This document shows, piece after piece, positions 8,176 through 62,508 of a DNA stretch of 64,000 nt; positions within the stretch are counted from its first letter, which is position 1; each line of letters starts with the position of its first letter. The DNA lies in NCBI GenBank assembly GCA_022482925.1, contig JAKVOG010000002.1, positions 62,001 through 126,000 on the forward strand. Direction: 5' to 3'. The position numbers were made by a program, and so were the translations under genes. This DNA comes from Selenomonas sp. (GTDB lineage Bacteria > Bacillota > Negativicutes > Selenomonadales > Selenomonadaceae). The notes under the pieces were generated by a model. That model saw only the letters and a list, made by a program, of their open reading frames with translations. It did not search any database and was not told where the DNA came from.

Positions 8176-10131
8176 TCAGATCGAATTGCGGCTCTGGCGG
8201 AACCGGTAGGTGCCAAGGCCAAGCTCACGCGGTCCCTGCTGGAGAACGGCAAGTTTATCAGCACTCACGGCCTGACCAGCACTCAGCTGATCGAGGGCTT
8301 CCCGGTAGATCTTCGTGACCGTTCCGGTGAAGTCCGGCGTGTAGTCCTGCGCTTCGATGCGATAGGAAGCTGCGCCGTTGAACTTGGCCAGATACGGATA
8401 CAGGCAAAGGTCTTTGGCAAAATACAGGTGGTTGCGGCCAAACTGGTCAACCCGGATCGCATGCTTTTCCTGGGCACTGTCGAGCAGGGCATAACGGCGG
8501 TCCATGACCTCCGGATTATCGAGCTCATTGAAATGAGGCAGCGACATTGCCGGGATGTTGTGGTCGAGGATCATCGACTCATAGGAGCCGTGGACGACTA
8601 CCTCGATCGGCAGCTCGGAATTTTCGACGATCTCGCGCAGCTGCTCGAAGGACAGCTCATAGGAAGCTGTGGCCTGCGTCTAGGCCGTTCTCTTTCAGGA
8701 AACGGGCAGCGAGGTGATTGAAGAGGTTGAAGGATACATCGGCCTGGACCTGGCAGCTGCGTGAGCTTCTTCGCCAGCTTCAGGGAAGCCGAGGTTGCTG
8801 ACCATGATGCCGTCAGCTTTGAGGGCTGCCATCATGACTCAGTGCCGTGAAGAACTGCTCCAGTTCGCCACACTCACGGCGCATGGTCGTGCGCGGCGTA
8901 TTGATGACGACTTTGGCCTTGCCTTTGGCATAGGCGATGATATCAGCGTAGTCGGCCAGTGACCACGGACGGTTCGGGCGGAAGGCCTCGCCGCCGACAT
9001 AGACGACATCGGCACCATTGTCGAATCGCAGCTTTGGCTGACTCGATCGTACCGGTGCGGACGCTCAGTGTGCGGTGAGGCGCATTCTCCTTCTGGATAT
9101 CCGGCTCCTGCTTGAGCACATCATCCTGGAAACCGGCTTCCTTGACAGCATCACTGAAGAAACGCGGCTCGCGTTTGCCATCAAAGCCGATGTCTTTCTT
9201 CGTGGTCTTACCGAAGGCGAACGTGGTCGTGAAATCACGGGCCCGGTTCTCGTAGAGGCTCTTCCAGCCTTCCTCATCAACCTGATAGCCGGCCGGGTCA
9301 GCCAGATAAGCATCGATTGCCTTGCGGTACGTGCTCACGATGCGGCGGACGAACGGAGCCGGACGCATGCGCCCTTCAATTTTGAAGGAGAAAACGCCAG
9401 CCTGGATCAGCTGCGGGATGGAACGATACATGCACATATCCTTGAGGGCAAGCTTGTAGGGGCCAGGTCCATCGGAATCGAGCACTTCGCCGGACTGCTC
9501 GTCGATGAGCTGGTATGGCCAGCGGCAGGGCTTCAGGCAGCGGCCGCGGTTGCCGCTCTGGCCGAAGACCACGCCGGAATGGATGCACTGTCCGCTTTCA
9601 CTCATGCACATGTCGCCGTGCATGAAGTATTCGACCTCGATGCCCGTGCGCTCACGGAACAGCGACAGCTCGGAGAGCGTCATCTCGCGGCCGACGACGA
9701 TACGCGTGATGCCATATTCCTTGAGCTTCTCGATGGCATGCTCATTATGGGTATTCATCATGACCGACGTATGGATCGGGATATTCAGGTTCATCTCATG
9801 GACCAGCTCCAGGACGGCGAAAGTCCTGCACCAGCAGTGCATCCGGCCGGATCTCATTCAGATAGGTCAGATATTCGCGCAGGGCCGGTACTTCTTCATC
9901 ACTGATGAGATTGTTCAGCGTGATATAGAGATGTACGCCATGTTCATGTGTATAGTTGATTGCTTTTTTGAGCATTTCGTCATCGAAATTGAAGTCGCCC
10001 TCATGCATGCGCATATTGAAGTGCTTGCCGCCCAGATAGACCGCATCGGCACCAGACTCCACACCAGCCACCAGTGCGTCCCAGGTACCAGCAGGCGCAA
10101 GAAGTTCAACAGATTTACGGTTCAATAACAT
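8176..10131 (-). pseudogene. Peptidase U32 family protein, RlhA/YdcP-like, multiple frameshifts
   Basis: One gene of about 650 residues, the length of two-domain U32 proteins such as E. coli RlhA, which is needed for 23S rRNA C2501 hydroxylation. The N-terminus SVELLAPAGTWDALVAGV and the U32 signature EYFMHGDMCMSESGQCIHS are clear, followed by GNRGRCLKPCRWPY and LALKDMCMYRSIPQL. Conserved cysteines of this motif probably hold an Fe-S cluster. The second half carries another U32-like domain (NGADVVYVGGEAFRPNRPW; KADGIMVSNLGF). At least five single-base indels occur, near 9822, 9036, 8838, 8755-8790 and 8690. Every piece continues in the next frame, so the gene is likely intact in the organism. 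Assignment to RlhA is by architecture only. Confidence 0.72.
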
Positions 10132-10348
10132 AGATGGTTTTCTCCTTTAAAAAGAAAGTAATGGACAAAATAATCCTAGTATAATAGTATAGCAGGAATC
10201 TATGGTCGTATCAAATCGCAACAGCTATGTGTTAGAGTCATTCAGGGGATTTTCGGTCGTTGTGGATTGACGGCCTGTAGCTGAAGACGTATATTATAGT
10301 GTAAATGATGCTACGGGCCTGTGGATTATTAGGAGGAGCAGAAAAAAC

Positions 10349-10726
10349 ATGAAGATTGAACGATTGGATCATCTGGTGATCACGACAGAGGACCTCGAGG
10401 CATGTCTGCATTTCTATGGGGATATCCTTGGAATGGAGATTGAACATCAAAATGGGTGCTACGCCTTGCGGTTTGGCAACCAGAAATTCAATATTCACCG
10501 GAAGAAGGCGGAATTCCTGCCGGCAGCAAAGAATGTCACCTATGGCAGCCTGGATCTGTGTTTCATTGTTGAAGGGGATATTCAGGATATCAAGGCCGAG
10601 ATCGAGTGTAAAGAATGGCCCATCGAGTGCGGTATTGTAGACCGGACAGGAGCCTGTGGCCCGATGCAGAGTCTCTACCTGCGTGACCCGGATGGGAAAC
10701 TGATCGAGCTCAGTGTATACCGGTGA
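10349..10726 (+). CDS. VOC (glyoxalase) family protein
   Basis: A 125-residue vicinal-oxygen-chelate protein with two beta-alpha-beta-beta-beta halves. The opening RLDHLVITTEDLEACLHFYGDILGM carries the first metal-ligand histidine (residue 8), and the end YLRDPDGKLIELSVYR carries the terminal glutamate. This places it among small VOC proteins often labelled 'virulence protein/glyoxalase' whose substrates are unknown. AGGAGG about ten bases before the ATG supports the start. It is followed closely by a tiny reading frame and the tag gene on the same strand. Confidence 0.85.
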   Translation: MKIERLDHLVITTEDLEACLHFYGDILGMEIEHQNGCYALRFGNQKFNIHRKKAEFLPAAKNVTYGSLDLCFIVEGDIQDIKAEIECKEWPIECGIVDRTGACGPMQSLYLRDPDGKLIELSVYR

Positions 10727-10730
10727 TTAG

Positions 10731-10826
10731 ATGATTAGCAATACGACTAATGATGCAATGATGTATGAGCCTCATATTAAATGGTATCAGGAACTGGTGC
10801 GGGCATTCGGGTATGATGTATTGTAA
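10731..10826 (+). CDS. Possible 31-residue ORF linking VOC and tag genes
   Basis: ATG at 10731 opens a 31-codon frame (MISNTTNDAMMYEPHIKWY...) that ends in TAA at 10826. It fills the gap between the VOC gene and the glycosylase gene. No clear Shine-Dalgarno sequence precedes it. It could be a translation-coupling leader, a remnant of a longer gene (MYEPHIKWYQELVRAFGYD looks like an ordinary protein segment), or chance. Confidence 0.25.
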   Translation: MISNTTNDAMMYEPHIKWYQELVRAFGYDVL

Positions 10827-10843
10827 TGAAAAGGAGAGAAATC

Positions 10844-11470
10844 ATGGCGTATTGCGATTGGGCTATGGGCAGTGAGACAATGATTCGCTATCATAATGAG
10901 GAATGGGGCGTGCCATTGCATGATGACCGGAAGCAGTTCGAGTTCCTGATGCTGGAGGCCATGCAGTGCGGGCTGAGTTGGAATCTGATGATGAATAAGC
11001 GGGAAATCTTCCGGAAGTGTTTCGCTTGCTTTGATTTTGATGCGGTTGCTGCGTTCGGCGAAGAAGATGTCCGGCGCATCATGGAGACACCGGGGATGAT
11101 CCGTTCGCGCCGAAAGATCGAAGCAGTCATCAACAATGCACGCTGCTTTCAGCAGATCCGGGCGGAGTATGGCTCTTTTTCGGCTTATATCTGGGGCTAT
11201 ACCGATGGCCGGACGGTAATCTACAACCATCATGCGGAGGGCTGGATCCCGGCCAGCAATGGCTTGTCCGATAAAGTCAGCCGGGATTTGAAACGGCGGG
11301 GATTTAAATACCTGGGAAGCATCACGGTTTATTCACATCTGCAGGCCTGTGGCATCATTAATGACCATGGTCAGGACTGTCCGTGCTTTCAGGCGATCAA
11401 CGAGAGCTGTCCTGTGGTGAGTAAACGGCGCAGCCAGGAGCATGATGTGCGCTGTTTTGGTGACCAGTGA
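10844..11470 (+). CDS. tag: DNA-3-methyladenine glycosylase I
   Basis: A 208-residue base-excision repair enzyme that removes 3-methyladenine from alkylated DNA. Key residues fall at the same numbers as in E. coli Tag: zinc ligands Cys4, His17, His175 and Cys179, the base-pocket Glu38 and Trp46. The helix-hairpin-helix region lies around VRRIMETPGMIRSRRKI (76-91). The start at 10844 (MAYCDW) has AAGGAGA upstream; an in-frame ATG at 10826 would add six residues and shift zinc-ligand numbering. Translation may be coupled to the VOC gene upstream. Confidence 0.93.
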   Translation: MAYCDWAMGSETMIRYHNEEWGVPLHDDRKQFEFLMLEAMQCGLSWNLMMNKREIFRKCFACFDFDAVAAFGEEDVRRIMETPGMIRSRRKIEAVINNARCFQQIRAEYGSFSAYIWGYTDGRTVIYNHHAEGWIPASNGLSDKVSRDLKRRGFKYLGSITVYSHLQACGIINDHGQDCPCFQAINESCPVVSKRRSQEHDVRCFGDQ

Positions 11471-11516
11471 TATATAGCCTTAGAGACATAGATACTTTAT
11501 TATAAAAACAAAAAAA

Positions 11517-11545
11517 TTGTTTTAAAACAGATGGAGTGGTATAAT
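11517..11545 (+). promoter_or_regulatory. Promoter of the ATPase/TOPRIM-like cassette
   Basis: TTGTTT (11517-11522) and TATAAT (11540-11545) are 17 bp apart. Transcription near 11552 would exclude the longer ATG/GTG starts and support the start at 11579. A short AT-only inverted repeat (AAAACAA / TTGTTTT) overlaps the -35 box. Confidence 0.72.
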
Positions 11546-11578
11546 AAACTAGGAAAACTTGTATGGGAGGTGTATCGT

Positions 11579-12697
11579 ATGCGATTGCTTAGAGTTTCAG
11601 CAGATCATTTCAAGAATGCTAAGGATGGTCTTACTATTGATCTTGTGCCGCAGGCACGCAAAAGTGATGAGGATAAACAATATGAGATGAATGAGATAGA
11701 CTCAGGTCTATTTGTCTATAGTACGGGAGCCTTTATTGGAAAGAATGCTTCCGGGAAGACAACGGCTTTGGATCTTTTGGATTGTGCGTATTCTATTTTG
11801 GGAGAATATAGGCTGGAGGGCAAGCACTATTCCTGTGAAGGCACTCGTCTGGAACTGTTTTTTTACGATAAGGGATATATATATCGTTACAGGACCATCC
11901 TGGATACCAGGATGAATGCTATGAATAGGACACAGTTTGGGCAGCAGGAGCTTGTCAGAAAAAAATATTATAGTTCATATGCAGCAAAAATATATGATTC
12001 AGAGGGCTTTGAAGCGGTCGATATTACAGGTAAGCTGCCCAAGGATACTTCTATTGTTTTTTTTGTTTCTGATGAACAGCAGACCTTAGCAGTTTATTTC
12101 AGCAGCTCAGATAATGGGGCTGACGTATATAGTCATGCATTCAATATATTGGAAGCAGAGAACCTAGGCATAGGAATATTATCGAAGATCTTGTTTATTT
12201 TTGATGAGAACATTACGGAACTGAGTCGGCTGGATGACCATAATTTTAGAATAGTGTATTGTGGGCAGGAAAGCATAAAATCGGATAAGGAACTTCTATA
12301 TTGGCTTTCTAGCGGAACGACTAAAGGAATGTTGCTTTATATGATGATGGCAGCTTCCCTGACTGAAGGGTTTGACCTGCTCGTAGACGAGATAGAGAAC
12401 CATTTCCATAAGACATTAGTACGTAATATGATTGACTTATACCGTGATAAGACAGTTAATCGGAAGGGTGCATCCTTATTTTTCACTACGCATTATTGCG
12501 AGATCCTGGATAGTTTCAACAGACAGGATAATATATGGATAACACGTTCTGAGGGCAAAGTGACAGCAGTAAGTATGCGTGAGGACCATCCGATTCGGCG
12601 TGAACTGCTGAAAAGCATACAATTCTATAACAATACATTTCGGACGGATATCAACTATGATGCGCTGATGGCGTTGAAAAAGGAACTGATGGCATGA
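11579..12697 (+). CDS. AAA-family ATPase (COG1106/OLD-like), candidate defence ATPase
   Basis: A 372-residue ABC-type ATPase resembling the COG1106/AAA_15/21 proteins found in abortive-infection and OLD-like systems. Visible: Walker A GKNASGKTT (54-62), a signature-like LSSGTTKGM (243-251), Walker B LLVDEIENHFH (267-277) and a switch region FFTTHYCEILD (301-311). The middle, about 75-235, is a variable insert with no recognised domain. Start 11579 has GGGAGGTG seven bases upstream and lies after the predicted transcription start. The stop overlaps the next gene's start by four bases (ATGA). Base composition and codons (many ATA, TTA, AGA) are more AT-rich than in neighbours, suggesting transfer. 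The defence role is inferred. Confidence 0.8.
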   Translation: MRLLRVSADHFKNAKDGLTIDLVPQARKSDEDKQYEMNEIDSGLFVYSTGAFIGKNASGKTTALDLLDCAYSILGEYRLEGKHYSCEGTRLELFFYDKGYIYRYRTILDTRMNAMNRTQFGQQELVRKKYYSSYAAKIYDSEGFEAVDITGKLPKDTSIVFFVSDEQQTLAVYFSSSDNGADVYSHAFNILEAENLGIGILSKILFIFDENITELSRLDDHNFRIVYCGQESIKSDKELLYWLSSGTTKGMLLYMMMAASLTEGFDLLVDEIENHFHKTLVRNMIDLYRDKTVNRKGASLFFTTHYCEILDSFNRQDNIWITRSEGKVTAVSMREDHPIRRELLKSIQFYNNTFRTDINYDALMALKKELMA

Positions 12698-13224
12698 AGG
12701 AATTGATCATGTGCGAGGGACCTAATGAAAAAGCAGTCATGGATATTCTTATCGACAATGGATTGCTGGTATTTGATCGGGATGATTTACTAGGCTTAGC
12801 GGTCTACCATGCGAGGCAGATAAAGACATCCGGTCAGGTGCGAAATGCCCTGGACATGTATTCCGGGCAGGTGGAGATCCTTCGGGTTGGAGATAAATTA
12901 AGCGATGAAATCAAAAAGATAAAGGCTTACGAACGTCAGTTGATGTCGATTCGTAAATATTGCACGAAACCGGAATTGGAGATATTGCTCATCATTGGAG
13001 AAAAGCTTTTATCATCTTTTGAGAAGGTGAAGAGCAAAGTGAAGCCAAAGGATTTTTCTAAGCAAAAGATTCAGTATAATGGGGTGAAATATAGGAATCA
13101 GACAGATTTCTATAAAATGTATTTTGGTCTAAGGCCAAAACTCCTGGTGCAATGTTTAAAGGCGTACAAGAGCTCCCATCGCAATAAGTCAGGGGAATTA
13201 TATATCGCTGATTTGTTGAAGTGA
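12694..13224 (+). CDS. Uncharacterised partner of the ATPase, TOPRIM-like N-terminus
   Basis: A 176-residue basic protein overlapping the ATPase gene by ATGA, so the two are translationally coupled. The opening KELIMCEGPNEKAVMDILI matches the first TOPRIM strand and its catalytic glutamate (E8) as seen in OLD and related nucleases. ILRVGDKLSDE (62-72) could supply the acidic second motif. CTKPELEILLIIGE (90-102) recalls the '(N/K)PxxExLL' element of RloB/DUF4276-type proteins. The lysine-rich C-terminus ends ELYIADLLK. No family name is certain. Paired with an ABC-type ATPase it resembles AbiL- or PARIS-like two-gene anti-phage modules without clearly belonging to either. Confidence 0.65.
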   Translation: MKELIMCEGPNEKAVMDILIDNGLLVFDRDDLLGLAVYHARQIKTSGQVRNALDMYSGQVEILRVGDKLSDEIKKIKAYERQLMSIRKYCTKPELEILLIIGEKLLSSFEKVKSKVKPKDFSKQKIQYNGVKYRNQTDFYKMYFGLRPKLLVQCLKAYKSSHRNKSGELYIADLLK

Positions 13225-13279
13225 CAGATACAGGAGAGCGATCTTTTCTAGTGATTAATTGGGTATAGTGTGCATGAAT

Positions 13280-13308
13280 TTGCATTTCGCTTTGAACTAT
13301 GTTACACT
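13280..13308 (+). promoter_or_regulatory. Promoter of the pheST T-box leader
   Basis: TTGCAT (13280-13285) and TACACT (13303-13308) are separated by 17 bp, with transcription expected near 13315 at the start of the T-box. Confidence 0.6.
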
Positions 13309-13314
13309 GTAAGA

Positions 13315-13537
13315 TATTGTGACGATGAAAAAGAAGAGTATGTTCAGTTGGTGTCGTTAGAGAGTCCCTGTGGCTGGAAATGGGATGATGCCGGGAGCAG
13401 AAAGTTCGCTTTGGAGTCTCCGGAGGAAATGTCGGACGTCGGGCTGCGTTAAGGCCGCTGAGTGAAAAATCAGGGTGGTACCGCGAACGTTTGCCTTCGC
13501 CCCTCATGCACGTTTTGTGCAGGGGGCGAAGGCTTTT
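13315..13537 (+). promoter_or_regulatory. T-box riboswitch controlling pheST
   Basis: A T-box leader that senses uncharged tRNA-Phe. The T-box core GGGTGGTACCGCG is at 13473-13485. A strong terminator follows: an 11-bp stem (13493-13503 with 13523-13533), an inner TGCAC/GTGCA helix and a T run. The antiterminator would use the T-box and the terminator's 5' arm. A TTC triplet at 13405-13407 in the Stem I region (GAAAGTTCGC) is the likely phenylalanine specifier. The stretch 13225-13559 holds no gene other than this leader. Confidence 0.9.
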
Positions 13538-13541
13538 ATAG

Positions 13542-14585
<1,044 letters not shown>

Positions 14586-14603: not shown

Positions 14604-17039
14604 ATGCAGGTTTCTATTAAGTGGCTGAACGACTATATCAAATTCAACGAGACAGCAGAAGAGCTCGCTGATAAATATACCATGGCCGGTGTACCGGTCG
14701 AGAATGTCATCCGGGCAGATGCCGGACTGGACAAGGTCATCACGGGTAAGATTGAGGAGCTCAAGGCTCATCCGGATTCGGATCATCTGCAGATCTGCCA
14801 GATGAATGTAGGCGCGGCTGAGCGCGTCCAGATCATCACGGGTGCACAGAATGTCAAAGAGGGGCAGATCGTGCCGGTGGCGATGGTCGGTGCCCATTTG
14901 CCCAATGGCCTTCACATCAAGAAAGGCAAGCTGCGCGGGCTGCCGTCGAATGGCATGCTCTGCTCGGCTGGTGAGCTCCACATGGACCTTTCCAAACTGA
15001 CGGATGCCGAGAAGGATGGCATCTATATCCTGCCGGCCGATACGCCGGTCGGTGTGCCGGCAAAAGATGTGCTGGGCCTTGATGATGTCGTGCTTGAGTA
15101 TGAGCTGACGGCAAACCGTGGCGACTGCTTCAGCGTGTTCGGTCTGGTTCGCGAGGCAGCAGTCCTGACGGGCAATGAGCCGCATTATCCGGAGATCACG
15201 GTTAAAGAAGATGATCCGGCTAAGGCAGCGGATATGGTGAAGATCGGCATTGAGGCGCATGACCTTTGTGACCGTTTTGCGGCCCGCGTCATCAAGAATG
15301 TCAAGATCGGCCCGTCCCCGGAGTGGATGCAGCAGCGTCTGGAAGGGGCTGGCATCCGTGCCATCAACAATGTGGTCGATGTTACGAACTTTGTCATGGT
15401 GGAGCTGGGACAGCCGCTTCATGCTTATGACTACGACCAGCTCAAAGGTCATGAGCTGACGGCTCGTCTGGCCGCTAAGGGTGAGAACCTGCATACGCTG
15501 GATGATTCGTCCCGTATCGCCAGGGGCACAGAGCTCGTTATCGCCGATGCCGAGAAGCCGGCCAGCCTGGCTGGCATCATGGGCGGTCTGGAGACTGAGG
15601 TCACGGAACAGACGACGACAATCGTCCTCGAGGCCGCATCCTTCAACGGACCGAGCGTCCGCCGGACGTCCCGTGCCTGCGGTCTGCATTCTGAGGCATC
15701 CGGTCGCTTCGAGCGTGGCGTGGATGTACCGAGTATCCCGCGTGCACTCGATCGTGCCTGCCAGCTGCTGCAGGACATGGGTGCCTGCACGGTTACGCAG
15801 GGCATTGTCGATGTCTATCCGGAGCCGAAGCAGCCGGTTGTCATCAACTTCACGGCTGAGCAGATCAACAAGCGTCTGGGTACGAGCCTGCCGGGCGCCA
15901 AAATGGTTGAGATCCTCGAGAGCATTGGTTTTGTCGTCGGGGAGACGGGCAGTAAGAGCTACAAAGTCACGGTACCGACCTGGCGTAATGACTGCACCTA
16001 CATGGAAGACCTCTCAGAGGAAGTCTCCCGTTTGTATGGCTTTGACAACATCCAGTCCACGACGCCGTATGGCCGCGTGATGCAGGGCCGTCAGAGCGAT
16101 CGTCAGAACTTCATTGATCATATCAAGCATATCCTGTCGGGACTGGGTATGACGGAGGAGCTGTCCTTCAGCTTCACGAGCGTGGATATGCTCGATAAGA
16201 TGCGCGTGCCGGCTGACAGCAAGCTGCGCCAGGCCATCCCAATCATGAATCCGCTGACGGATGAGTGCCCGCTGGTTCGTACGAGCCTGTTGACGAGCAT
16301 CATGGAGAATGCAGTCCGCAACTTCTCCCGTAAGAACATGGACATCCGTCTCTTTGATGTGGCGCCGGTATTCTATCCAAAGGCGCTGCCGGTCACGGAA
16401 CTGCCGGATGAGGTCATCAAGCTGGCTGGTCTTATCACTGGCCGCCGCAATGAGATGGGCTGGAACCAGGGCAATGACATGGTGGACTTCTATGATATGA
16501 AGGGCATTGTCGAGGAACTCCTGAAGGAGCTCTCCATTTCCAAGTATACGGTCGAGGCCGGTGAGCATTTCGCACTGCATCCGGGCAAGACGGCTGTATT
16601 CAAGAAGGGGCAGGAAGTCATCGCGGTTGTCGGTGAGCTCATCCGGCTGTAGCTGAGAACTTCGGCATCAAGCAGGCGGTCTACCTCTTCGAGATGGATA
16701 TCGAGACGCTCATGAAGTATACGGCTAAGAACTTCCACTTCGAGTCCCTGCCGAAGTATCCGGCGATTGCCCGTGACCTGGCTATTGTTGTCGATGAGAC
16801 AGCAGCTGCTGCGGATATCGAGGCGGTTATCGCAAAGAATGGCGGCAAGCACTTTAAGGGCGTGACGCTTTTCGATGTCTATACCGGCGAGCATGTCGCT
16901 GAGGGCAAGAAGAGCCTGGCCTTCAACCTGCAGTTCCAGTCCAAAGGATAAGACACTGACAGATGAGGAAGCCGATTCGGCCTTCCAGAGCATCCTGAAA
17001 GCCGTTGAGAAGCAGTTCCAGGCAGAGCTGCGTGCATAA
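14604..17039 (+). pseudogene. pheT: Phenylalanyl-tRNA synthetase beta subunit, two frameshifts
   Basis: The beta chain, about 811 residues when corrected. Domains in order: EMAP-type tRNA-binding domain (about 40-150, with AHPDSDHLQICQMNVG and SNGMLCSAGEL), B3/B4 editing domain, B5 domain, a catalytic-like core, and the C-terminal FDX-ACB anticodon-binding domain (PKYPAIARDLAIVVDE). A missing base near 16638 (should read GELHPAVAENFGI) and an extra G near 16949 (should read QFQSKDKTLTDEEAD) break the frame; they cancel, and the protein ends at 17039. As the only pheT seen beside an intact pheS in an essential pair, real inactivation is unlikely, so sequence error is favoured. Confidence 0.93.
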
Positions 17040-17051
17040 AAGGTGAAACGT

Positions 17052-17315
17052 ATGGCAGAAGAAAAGAAGAATCAGCCGGCTGAGCGGGTGGTCGTAGACA
17101 TCTATGGCAGCAGTTATCCGCTCAAGACGGATAATCCAAAGCATCTTGTCCGGCTGGCAGCAGACCTGGATAAACGGATGAAACAGATGTCCCGTGCGGT
17201 TCGCAGTTTCGATGACCGCAAGATTGCTGTGCTCACAGCCCTTCAGCTGGCAGAGGAATACTATCAGCTGAAAAAAGATTATGATGAGCTGGTTGAACTG
17301 ATGGACGAAAAATAA
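17052..17315 (+). CDS. zapA: Cell division protein ZapA
   Basis: An 87-residue ZapA, which bundles FtsZ filaments at midcell. Recognised by VVVDIYGSSYPLKT near the N-terminus, the segment LVRLAADLDKRMKQM, and a C-terminal helix for dimerisation (VLTALQLAEEYYQLKKDYDELVELM). The ATG at 17052 has AAAGGTGA seven bases upstream. The gene follows pheT by 12 bp, an order common in Firmicutes, and probably belongs to the T-box-controlled transcript. Confidence 0.88.
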   Translation: MAEEKKNQPAERVVVDIYGSSYPLKTDNPKHLVRLAADLDKRMKQMSRAVRSFDDRKIAVLTALQLAEEYYQLKKDYDELVELMDEK

Positions 17316-17442
17316 TTGTATATACCAGGAAAACCGTTGACGTATGAGCAGTGGTTCCTTTTTATAAATTTAGGAGAAGGGCAGGAGAATCAAGGCTGGA
17401 TGCGAATATAGAAAGTAAGATACAGAAAAGGAGTGGATGATC

Positions 17443-19164
17443 ATGGGGTGGATCAATAATTTGAGAGTAGCTTATAAGATGCTGATTCTGGCAGTTATTG
17501 CGGTGATCGGTATGAGTTTTATTGGCTATTCGGGCTATTCGGCTATAACGAAAGCAAAGACCGATATGGATACGATGTATTCAACATCGGTCAGATCATT
17601 GGATTATGTGGGACAGATCCGTTTCGGGATCCGTTATGCGCAGGGGATGGCCGTCATCACGACGACGGTACGCAATGATCCACAGCGTGTGCAGACATTA
17701 CAGCAGAAGTATCAGGATGGCATCAAGATCGTGGAGGAAAACCTGCAGCAATATGAGGCTATACCTGGCCGGACGGAAGAGATGAAGGCAGAGCTGATGG
17801 AAACCAAAGCGCGTTGGCAGCGACTGAAAGCCAATCTTGACGAGGTGATGAAAGACTGTATGGCGGGACAGCCGGAAGCGGGACTGGTCAGCTATAATGC
17901 GACCGGCTCTAAGGAAGCCAATGATATCCGCGCTCATGTCGACGGTCTGGCCTCGATGGAGACGGCGGAGGCGGAGCAGCTCAATACGCAGAATAACGCA
18001 GAAACCGGTGCAGCTATCCGCAATATGGTCATTCAGCTGTTGGTGACGTTAATCATCTTGATAGCGGCATCGCTCTGGATCACGAAAGAGATCACGAATC
18101 CATTGCAGAAGATGATGATGGCACTGGAACGGCTGAAAGGTGGAGACTTCAGCAATCATGCCCGGACTATCAATCGCGGGGATGAGTTCGGTGAGATGGC
18201 GGACAAAGTAGCAGAGGTTCGCATGAGCCTCAACAAACTGATGCATAATACGAGCACGACAGCGGAGCAGCTGGCGGCATAGTCGGAAGAACTCACAGCC
18301 AGTGCCCAGCAGTCGGCACAGGCATCTGATCAGGTCGCTCAGTCGGTCACGAATGCAGCTGGCACGGTCGCGGAGCAGCAGCAGGACGTGTCAGATGCCA
18401 TGGCTTCTATCGACAATACGGTTGAGTCGGTTAACCGCCTGAGCAAGACTGCTGACCGGGTATCCAGCCACGCGGCGGACAGCAAGGACGCAGCCGTACA
18501 GGGCAACGAAGCGGTGAAGCAGGCGGTACAGCAGATCACCAGCGCAGCGGCAGTTGTCAATACATCGGCAGCCAGTGTTGATAAACTGGGACAGAGCTCG
18601 CAGCAGATCGGTCAGATCGTAGAGACGATCTCTACGATTGCGGAGCAGACGAACCTGCTGGCCCTCAATGCAGCAATCGAGGCAGCCCGTGCCGGTGAGC
18701 ATGGCCGTGGCTTTGCGGTGGTTGCAGATGAGGTGAGGAAGCTGGCCGAGGCTTCGCAGCAGGCGGCGCAGCAGATTGCCGGACTGATTGGTGGTATCCA
18801 GTCTGAGACTGTTGAGGCAGTTCAGTCCATGCAGCAAGGGAGCCAGGCGGTAAAAGAGGGGACGCAGTCTGTTGAGCAGCTGCGTGAGACGTTCAAGCGT
18901 ATCCATGAGTCTGCACTGGGCGTAGCACAGCAGGCTGAAGCGATGACAGCGGAGATCCGTGCCGTTGCGGAGGAGACCGGACGTGTCAAGACGAAATCAG
19001 AAGGAATCACCCAGAAAGGCGGCGTAGTTGCTTCGGAAATGGAGAGCGTCTCTGCCGCTTCTGAAGAACAGGCTGCATCGGCTACGGAGATTGCGGATGC
19101 CAGTACGTCACTGGCTGGTTTGGCGCAGGGGTTGCAGAACTCGCTGAAGCAATTCAAGTTCTGA
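17443..19164 (+). pseudogene. Methyl-accepting chemotaxis protein with an in-frame amber codon
   Basis: A membrane chemoreceptor of about 573 residues if read through. It has TM1 (about 8-30), a four-helix-bundle sensor domain (about 35-190), TM2 (about 192-212), a HAMP domain (KEITNPLQKMMMALERLKGGDF onward) and a cytoplasmic signalling coiled coil with the hairpin tip [24 protein letters not shown] at 18280-18282 interrupts the same frame just after HAMP ([15 protein letters not shown]), where a glutamine codon (CAG) is expected. This is a substitution, not an indel. The start ATG 17443 is favoured by AAGGAG nine bases upstream. Methylation-site and ligand specificity cannot be read. Confidence 0.85.
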
Positions 19165-61416: not shown

Positions 61417-62508
61417 TTGAATGATGAAGATTTTATGCGGGCGGCACTGCAGCTGGCCCGCAATGCGGAGGGGCGGACCTCGCCGAATCCGCTGGTGGGC
61501 GCGGTAATCGTCCGTGACGGACGGATCATCGCCGCTGGCTGGCATCGCAAAGCCGGTACGCCGCATGCGGAAGTGCATGCGCTGCGTATGGCTGGAGAAC
61601 TGGCTAAGGGGGCAACTCTTTATGTGACGCTTGAGCCCTGTGCGCATTATGGTCGTACCGGCCCTTGCGCCAAGGCCGTAGCCGAGGCTGGTATCCGCCG
61701 CGTGGTCATCGGGATGAAAGACCCGAATCCGCTGGTGGCGGGCAAGGGTATCCGTATTCTTGAGGACGCCGGTGTTGAGGTCGTCTGCGGGGTGCTGGCG
61801 GCGGAAGCGATTCAGCTCAATGAGGTGTTTCTCAAATGGATCGGGAACAAGATGCCATTTGTTATCCTCAAGACGGCGATGACGTTGGACGGCAAGATCG
61901 CTACCGCGGCTGGTGAGTCCCAGTGGATTACCAATGAGGCTTCCCGACGCCGTGTGCATGAATACCGCGACTGTTACGATGGTATCCTGGCCGGTATCGG
62001 TACGGTGCTGGCTGATGACCCAAGCCTGACGACACGCCTGCCGGACCGTGAAGGGAAGAATCCTGTCCGCATCATCGTGGACAGTCAGGCCCGTACGCCG
62101 CTCAATGCTAAGGTTGTGACGGATGGTCAGTCCCGGACAATCATTGCGGTGACGGCCCAGGCTCCGGCTGAACGGGTCAGGGCATTGCAGGCTGCCGGTG
62201 TTGAGGTGCTTACGGCGGGCGGCGGTGCGCATGTTGATCTGCGTGTACTGCTGCAGCAGCTGGGTCAGCAGGAGATCTGCTCGATTCTCGTCGAAGGCGG
62301 CGGCCAGGTCAATTTCTCGCTGCTGGCCGATGGTCTCGTAGACAAGGTCTGTGCGTTTATCGCGCCCAAACTGATCGGCGGCAGAGACGCGCTGACTCCG
62401 GTTGAAGGGGCAGGCTTTGCGCATCTGAGCGAGGCTGTAGAGCTGGAACGAATCACTACGGAACTGCTGGCAGGAGACATCCTGCTGACCGGTTATCCGA
62501 AGAAGTAA
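61417..62508 (+). CDS. ribD: Bifunctional riboflavin biosynthesis deaminase/reductase RibD
   Basis: A 363-residue enzyme. The N-terminal deaminase (about 1-145) has the zinc motif GTPHAEVHAL (His, catalytic Glu) and LEPCAHYGRTGPCAKAV (two Cys). The C-terminal reductase (from about 146) starts KTAMTLDGKIATAAGESQWIT and has VEGGGQVNFSLL. It converts diaminohydroxyphosphoribosylaminopyrimidine to the 5-amino-ribitylamino precursor. The TTG start at 61417 has GAGGTGA six bases upstream. First gene of the FMN-controlled operon. Confidence 0.96.
   Translation: MNDEDFMRAALQLARNAEGRTSPNPLVGAVIVRDGRIIAAGWHRKAGTPHAEVHALRMAGELAKGATLYVTLEPCAHYGRTGPCAKAVAEAGIRRVVIGMKDPNPLVAGKGIRILEDAGVEVVCGVLAAEAIQLNEVFLKWIGNKMPFVILKTAMTLDGKIATAAGESQWITNEASRRRVHEYRDCYDGILAGIGTVLADDPSLTTRLPDREGKNPVRIIVDSQARTPLNAKVVTDGQSRTIIAVTAQAPAERVRALQAAGVEVLTAGGGAHVDLRVLLQQLGQQEICSILVEGGGQVNFSLLADGLVDKVCAFIAPKLIGGRDALTPVEGAGFAHLSEAVELERITTELLAGDILLTGYPKK

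Follow-up and report, generated by a model that had tools for sequence, protein, structure and literature searches.

A patchy, mobile gene pair between tag and pheS in Selenomonas encodes an AbiLi/RloA-like ATPase and a putative TOPRIM-type effector

A 64,000-nucleotide stretch of Selenomonas sp. DNA (positions 62,001 to 126,000 of contig JAKVOG010000002.1, hereafter the window) carries, between tag and the leader of pheS, a cassette of two genes that we call A and B. They are coupled by an ATGA overlap, and both frames are present as a first-pass annotation, made from the sequence alone, had described them. Gene A encodes an ATPase of the ATP-binding cassette (ABC) type, and gene B a small basic protein that is probably a nuclease effector. 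The features of the locus are as follows, in window coordinates.

11480..13279 (approximate limits), + strand: inserted cassette, from the empty-site comparison with genome G015 (locus L149) and the drop in guanine-plus-cytosine (GC) content
11517..11545, + strand: promoter-like TTGTTT-N17-TATAAT upstream of gene A, read from the sequence, with a perfect -10 and 3/6 matches at -35
11579..12697, + strand: gene A, 372-aa ABC-type (AAA_21) ATPase, AbiLi/RloA-like, from Pfam, PADLOC, an RloA profile and a structure model
11804..12283, + strand: variable insert of A (residues 76-235), its least conserved region and a candidate sensor region
12694..13224, + strand: gene B, 176-aa basic protein, probable TOPRIM-type nuclease effector, from invariant acidic residues and weak structural matches

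The pair has been inserted here, in a segment of roughly 1.8 kb, because the aligned tag and pheS-leader blocks that stand this far apart in the window are separated by 21 bp in G015, a genome of the same genus with a 97% identical PheS. Neither a target duplication nor a flanking inverted repeat was conspicuous around the cassette. Of the 21 other pheS loci from the genus, each taken with 1.5 kb upstream, none aligned to it, and only the G015 locus among them has tag upstream of pheS. The GC content is 38-43% along the cassette, 50-52% in tag, and 54-61% over most of pheST; low values also occur nearby (45-49% at 9750-10999 and 44-45% at 17000-17749). At third codon positions (GC3), it is 41% in A and 50% in B, compared with 63-70% in tag, pheS, and pheT. 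The first-pass annotation had described AT-rich use of ATA, TTA, and AGA codons. The GC3 values agree with this, as do the ATA and TTA codons, which are used in A and B and absent from tag, pheS, and pheT, but AGA is scarce everywhere (four in A, none in B, one in tag). The same annotation gave the cassette its own promoter. The TTGTTT-N17-TATAAT element makes this plausible but leaves it unproven, as a consensus scan returned six sites where 5.9 were expected by chance, none of them on the + strand upstream of A.

The frame of gene A has its first ATG at 11531 (388 aa); the ATG at 11579, which follows a GGAGGTG ribosome site, gives the 372 residues reported earlier, with the stop at 12697. 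The protein contains a Walker A motif (GKNASGKTT, residues 54-62), an ABC-type signature (LSSGTTKG, 243-250), and a Walker B motif (LLVDEIENHFH, 267-277), as well as His305. It matched AAA_21 in Pfam (1.7e-12) and AbiLi in PADLOC (3.8e-32, 109.6 bits), and all 51 A sequences scanned with PADLOC matched the AbiLi model. With hhalign, the gene A profile aligned to nine RloA proteins over 365 columns, the C-terminal element included (probability 99.7, E 1.3e-25). The predicted structure (predicted local distance difference test, pLDDT, 86.9) matched the retron/Septu PtuA, Rad50, and chains of AriA-AriB. A is thus an ABC-type ATPase nearest to AbiLi/RloA. As first described, it has a variable insert: among six close sequences, residues 76-235 have a mean identity of 52%, compared with 68-74% elsewhere, and this region may act as a sensor.

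To place gene B, we relied on a survey of its relatives. Searching 84,980 genomes with family alignments yielded 129, and we retained the 80 best; with seven more on viral contigs and one on a plasmid, these make up the 88 loci surveyed. The 82 aligned B sequences (alignment A5) come from 78 of these loci, the window, L019, L028, and L029. The ten loci outside it are six near-duplicates, three with odd frames (L057, L091, and L122), and L066, which has a stop in the matched frame. E8, G9, E12, D67, T91, P93, E94, and E96 are invariant in 82/82 sequences, and 98% of them have E or D at position 71, giving D-x-x-x-E/D instead of DxD. The three elements that the first-pass annotation had picked out in B are therefore family-wide motifs: LIMCEGPNEK contains the TOPRIM-like first motif (E8, G9, E12), GDKLSDE contains D67, and KPELEILLI contains T91, P93, E94, and E96. 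Their order is also kept in eight of the ten loci outside the alignment, the exceptions being L091 and L122, where a stop interrupts the matched frame and the frame that remains lacks the first part. The length and basic character given for B also held (computed isoelectric point 9.5).

B belongs to a real family. Pfam (HNH included), PADLOC, and NCBIfam gave no match to the window protein. A profile search of the Protein Data Bank (PDB) gave nothing convincing (best E 0.4), and tblastn found no homologue in the phages collection. We rejected an assignment to AbiLii/RloB: the window protein matched neither AbiLii (PDLC02337) nor RloB (PF13707) at E up to 1, and among the 82 sequences, the matches were at chance level (one to AbiLii, E 0.0095; two to RloB, best E 0.011). 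A profile-profile comparison of B with RloB gave P 0.02 and a probability of 2, with an observed score of 21.1 against 12.0 for the reversed profile; 97 of 100 column-shuffles scored 16.7 or less, and three, one of which was inspected, about 131. Eleven PADLOC families were matched by the 82 sequences, with no AriB among them. One was NsnC (7/82 sequences, best 3.9e-4), and NsnB was matched by 42 of 51 A sequences (best 9.3e-10). The NsnC reading was dropped: in the one case that was positioned (L048, E 0.0038), it falls among the C-terminal helices (residues 112-168), outside the motif. Our literature search found no paper on "Nsn" defence genes.

The structure predicted for B (pLDDT 92.9) resembled the TOPRIM domains of OLD and GajA and a phage RloB-like protein, all weakly; Foldseek found nothing at E 0.001 in PDB and BFVD. 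In class 2 OLD nucleases, E400, E404, D455, D457, T506, and E508 surround two metals, and OLD variants with single mutations retained activity (PMC6755086). Compared by order and spacing, B has the same E+4 interval, a first D that matches in order, and then T..E, so that its invariant acids appear to follow one another as in the two-metal site of OLD. A TOPRIM fold and nuclease activity are what this pattern suggests for B. Two individual members call for separate mention. A homologue at 7980-8522 of L043 (NZ_CP089851.1), WP_095759350.1, is annotated "N-6 DNA methylase", a name that is probably wrong because the protein, 180 aa long, belongs to the B family. At 1369-1878 of L019 (- strand), a relative 58% identical over residues 1-126 diverges after residue 126, suggesting a frameshifted or decayed end.

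A and B are inherited together. An ATPase with a Walker A motif lies directly upstream of B in 81/88 loci, at a spacing of -26 to +17 nt, and the distances of A and B correlate over 76 pairs (r 0.93). Seven loci lack an A frame. At L058, L066, L080, and L105, the contig ends less than 640 bp from B; at L122, a Walker motif is present upstream but in a different frame, and at L057 and L091 there is no such motif over 1.3 kb. The genes are separate in the window and in 81/81 pairs. No recurrent third gene accompanies them, the most widespread neighbour family being found at 8/75 loci and at scattered positions.

The pair is also patchy, occurs at unrelated sites, and is mobile. B homologues were found in 2/22 genomes of the genus (the window's and, at another site, G002), in 12/380 genomes of the class, the window genome included, and in 4/398 of the phylum, one as a short frame. 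A thirteenth match in the class (L030, E 3.4e-4) fell within a peptidase-like frame of 604 aa and was discarded as spurious. The homologues are thus far from being fixed at this locus in all relatives, a check set by the first-pass annotation. Plasmid copies occur in Ligilactobacillus salivarius and in two Bifidobacterium strains, in one of them on the megaplasmid pMP7017. Most of the closest relatives of B found are on viral contigs: L038-L042 have terminase, portal, and head genes among 47 flanking proteins, with terminase on L038 and L039, and L178 carries the same A/B pair. In a phylogeny of 76 B proteins, the window B clusters with four copies from viral contigs (98/98) and away from the Selenomonadaceae copies included; long-branch warnings attach to L041, the window, and four others, and the tree leaves out L019, whose copy is on a chromosomal contig and is about as close to the window B over residues 1-126. 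A role in DNA repair or housekeeping, with A as a Rad50-like ATPase and B as its accessory protein, is one that we consider highly improbable. It is contradicted by the presence in so few same-genus genomes, the differing insertion sites, the foreign composition, and the carriage on viral contigs and plasmids. RloA-RloB pairs were seen at L031, L032, and L033, in class genomes G059 and G047 and same-genus genome G008, so both kinds of pair circulate in the group.

AbiL/RloAB is one of the closest known systems. Both are two-gene operons with the ATPase first (as in the 81 paired loci here) followed by a small TOPRIM-like protein, and the motif order of B (CEG..E, then D, then PxxE) parallels that of RloB. 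However, A scores well below three RloA proteins on the AbiLi model (110 against 269-341 bits), and B has D-x-x-x-E for DxD and E, E+4 for the usual E, E+5 of RloB. For PARIS (AriA/AriB, class 4 OLD), the AbiLi model fits A better than the AriA model does (109.6 vs 49.4 bits). No AriB match for B was listed in a comparison with Pfam and PADLOC models, among which a separate one for AriB may or may not exist. Gabija, retron, and HNH/Septu assignments were rejected, their partners being missing (no recurrent third gene, and B without a Pfam HNH). The pair shares the ancestry of A with AbiL, and it would probably work like the AbiL, PARIS, and OLD systems. The earlier suggestion that it follows the logic of OLD, Gabija, AbiL, and PARIS with a second protein that does not clearly fit any of them is partly supported: A is kin to AbiLi/RloA and B stands outside AbiLii/RloB, and the TOPRIM resemblance of B is weak.

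Likeness to OLD/GajA (classes 1-3) extends to the ABC ATPase head and, by order and spacing, to the two-metal pattern (E, E+4, D, T..E). An alternative is that B acts directly on incoming DNA, as a nuclease of prophage-type exclusion or one directed at mobile elements, while the host survives, as in the logic of OLD, Gabija, and Wadjet-JetD. The metal-site layout of B, nearer OLD (E, E+4) than RloB (E, E+5), and the viral setting of most of its closest relatives would fit such a role. We nevertheless regard it as improbable: OLD and GajA are single fused chains, whereas no fused A-B chain was seen among the 88 loci, where B frames do not exceed 272 aa, and a helicase-like third gene does not recur.

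The reading that we prefer, with a probability of roughly two in three, is that the pair is a mobile split ATPase/TOPRIM abortive-infection module in which A senses or holds and B cuts nucleic acid. A, probably as an oligomer, would keep B inactive or in a pre-activated complex, and a surface on A, probably in the variable insert, would notice infection and lead to the release or activation of B. B would then cut nucleic acid using two metal ions bound at E8/E12/D67/(E71)/E94/E96. Its target would somewhat more likely be host RNA such as tRNA, as for AriB, than DNA, as for OLD/GajA, and the cutting would halt growth before the phage matures. A precedent is PARIS, where AriA holds AriB until infection releases it to cut tRNA, and the AriB E26A variant is inactive (PMC12409363).

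Enrichment of defence genes around the homologues, which the first-pass annotation had proposed as a check, did not emerge when PADLOC (E 1e-15) was run on the neighbours at 75/88 loci, omitting six near-duplicates and seven loci without an A call. The 138 nearest-neighbour proteins gave 44 families and the 112 outermost 32, with no clear excess near the pair; the comparison is a weak one, as it counts families and not proteins, covers the first 25 families, and takes its outer genes from within ~10 kb. The case for defence therefore rests on kinship and mobility and not on islands. With Pfam (119 families), four of the 138 neighbours had PLD-like domains and two were site-specific recombinases. 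Individual copies of B lie beside AbiE-like genes (AbiEi/AbiEii-looking, L019) and an HsdM-like gene (L025), by reading of the frames, or have a DNA methyltransferase gene in the vicinity (L036 by eye, pMP7017 as annotated).

The carriage on viral contigs and plasmids would also suit a plain toxin-antitoxin (addiction) pair, in which A neutralises a toxic B and the pair is kept because it stabilises phages, plasmids, or islands, without sensing phages. Such pairs have precedents: in the NetFlax study, AAA-neutralised TOPRIM toxins were reported as toxin-antitoxin pairs on the strength of neutralisation assays, with AAA (D29) set against TOPRIM_OLD D60 in S. agalactiae or the RloB-like D44 in C. 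algidicarnis; phage defence is the authors' speculation there, and no hits were obtained when they screened a third AAA pair, one with a different toxin, against phages (PMC10440598). From the AbiL side, another report describes an F. nucleatum AbiLii that is toxic in E. coli, without showing neutralisation by AbiLi, and an L. lactis AbiLii that is non-toxic there (PMC3985639). We consider simple addiction unlikely, since A is large, with a complete conserved ATP-binding site and a faster-changing insert that go beyond the needs of an antitoxin, and its AbiLi/RloA kinship ties it to an abortive-infection system. The two ideas overlap, and the difference is a matter of trigger.

More tentatively, B may be a TOPRIM-type effector that has so far escaped recognition, with a metal site (E-x3-E, D-x3-E, T-x-P-E-x-E) and a clade of sensor ATPase of its own. 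The pair would then add another split OLD-like class to PARIS and AbiL, with its own trigger and target, carried by phages and large plasmids among the Bacillota, and some of the Actinomycetota, that live in guts and rumens. Our literature searches on AbiL, RloB, and TOPRIM found no description of the B family; D44 is RloB-like, and D60 might be of the same family as B. A coherent family, the 129 relatives of a single genome scan, would in any case join the ATPase-plus-TOPRIM group, and its effector is publicly annotated as "hypothetical protein" or, once, as the methylase mentioned above. AriB of PARIS is a member of this group with a mapped RNA target, and the present pair could show whether RNA or DNA is the usual one. 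With two compact genes and a small effector, it would also be convenient for studying the control of a TOPRIM nuclease by an ABC ATPase. Prediction tools that call A "AbiLi" yet miss B would report half a system.

Around the cassette, the T-box reported before pheST is supported by the motif AGGGTGGTACCGCG, seen by eye near 13472, but Rfam at the gathering threshold gave no match over 10500-14000, the pheS T-box included. Read by eye, pheT (14604-16951) consists of two frames (682 and 85 aa), as if broken near its end in this assembly, and a U32 peptidase-like gene on the - strand (8943-10131) is split over two overlapping frames, which suggests a frameshift.
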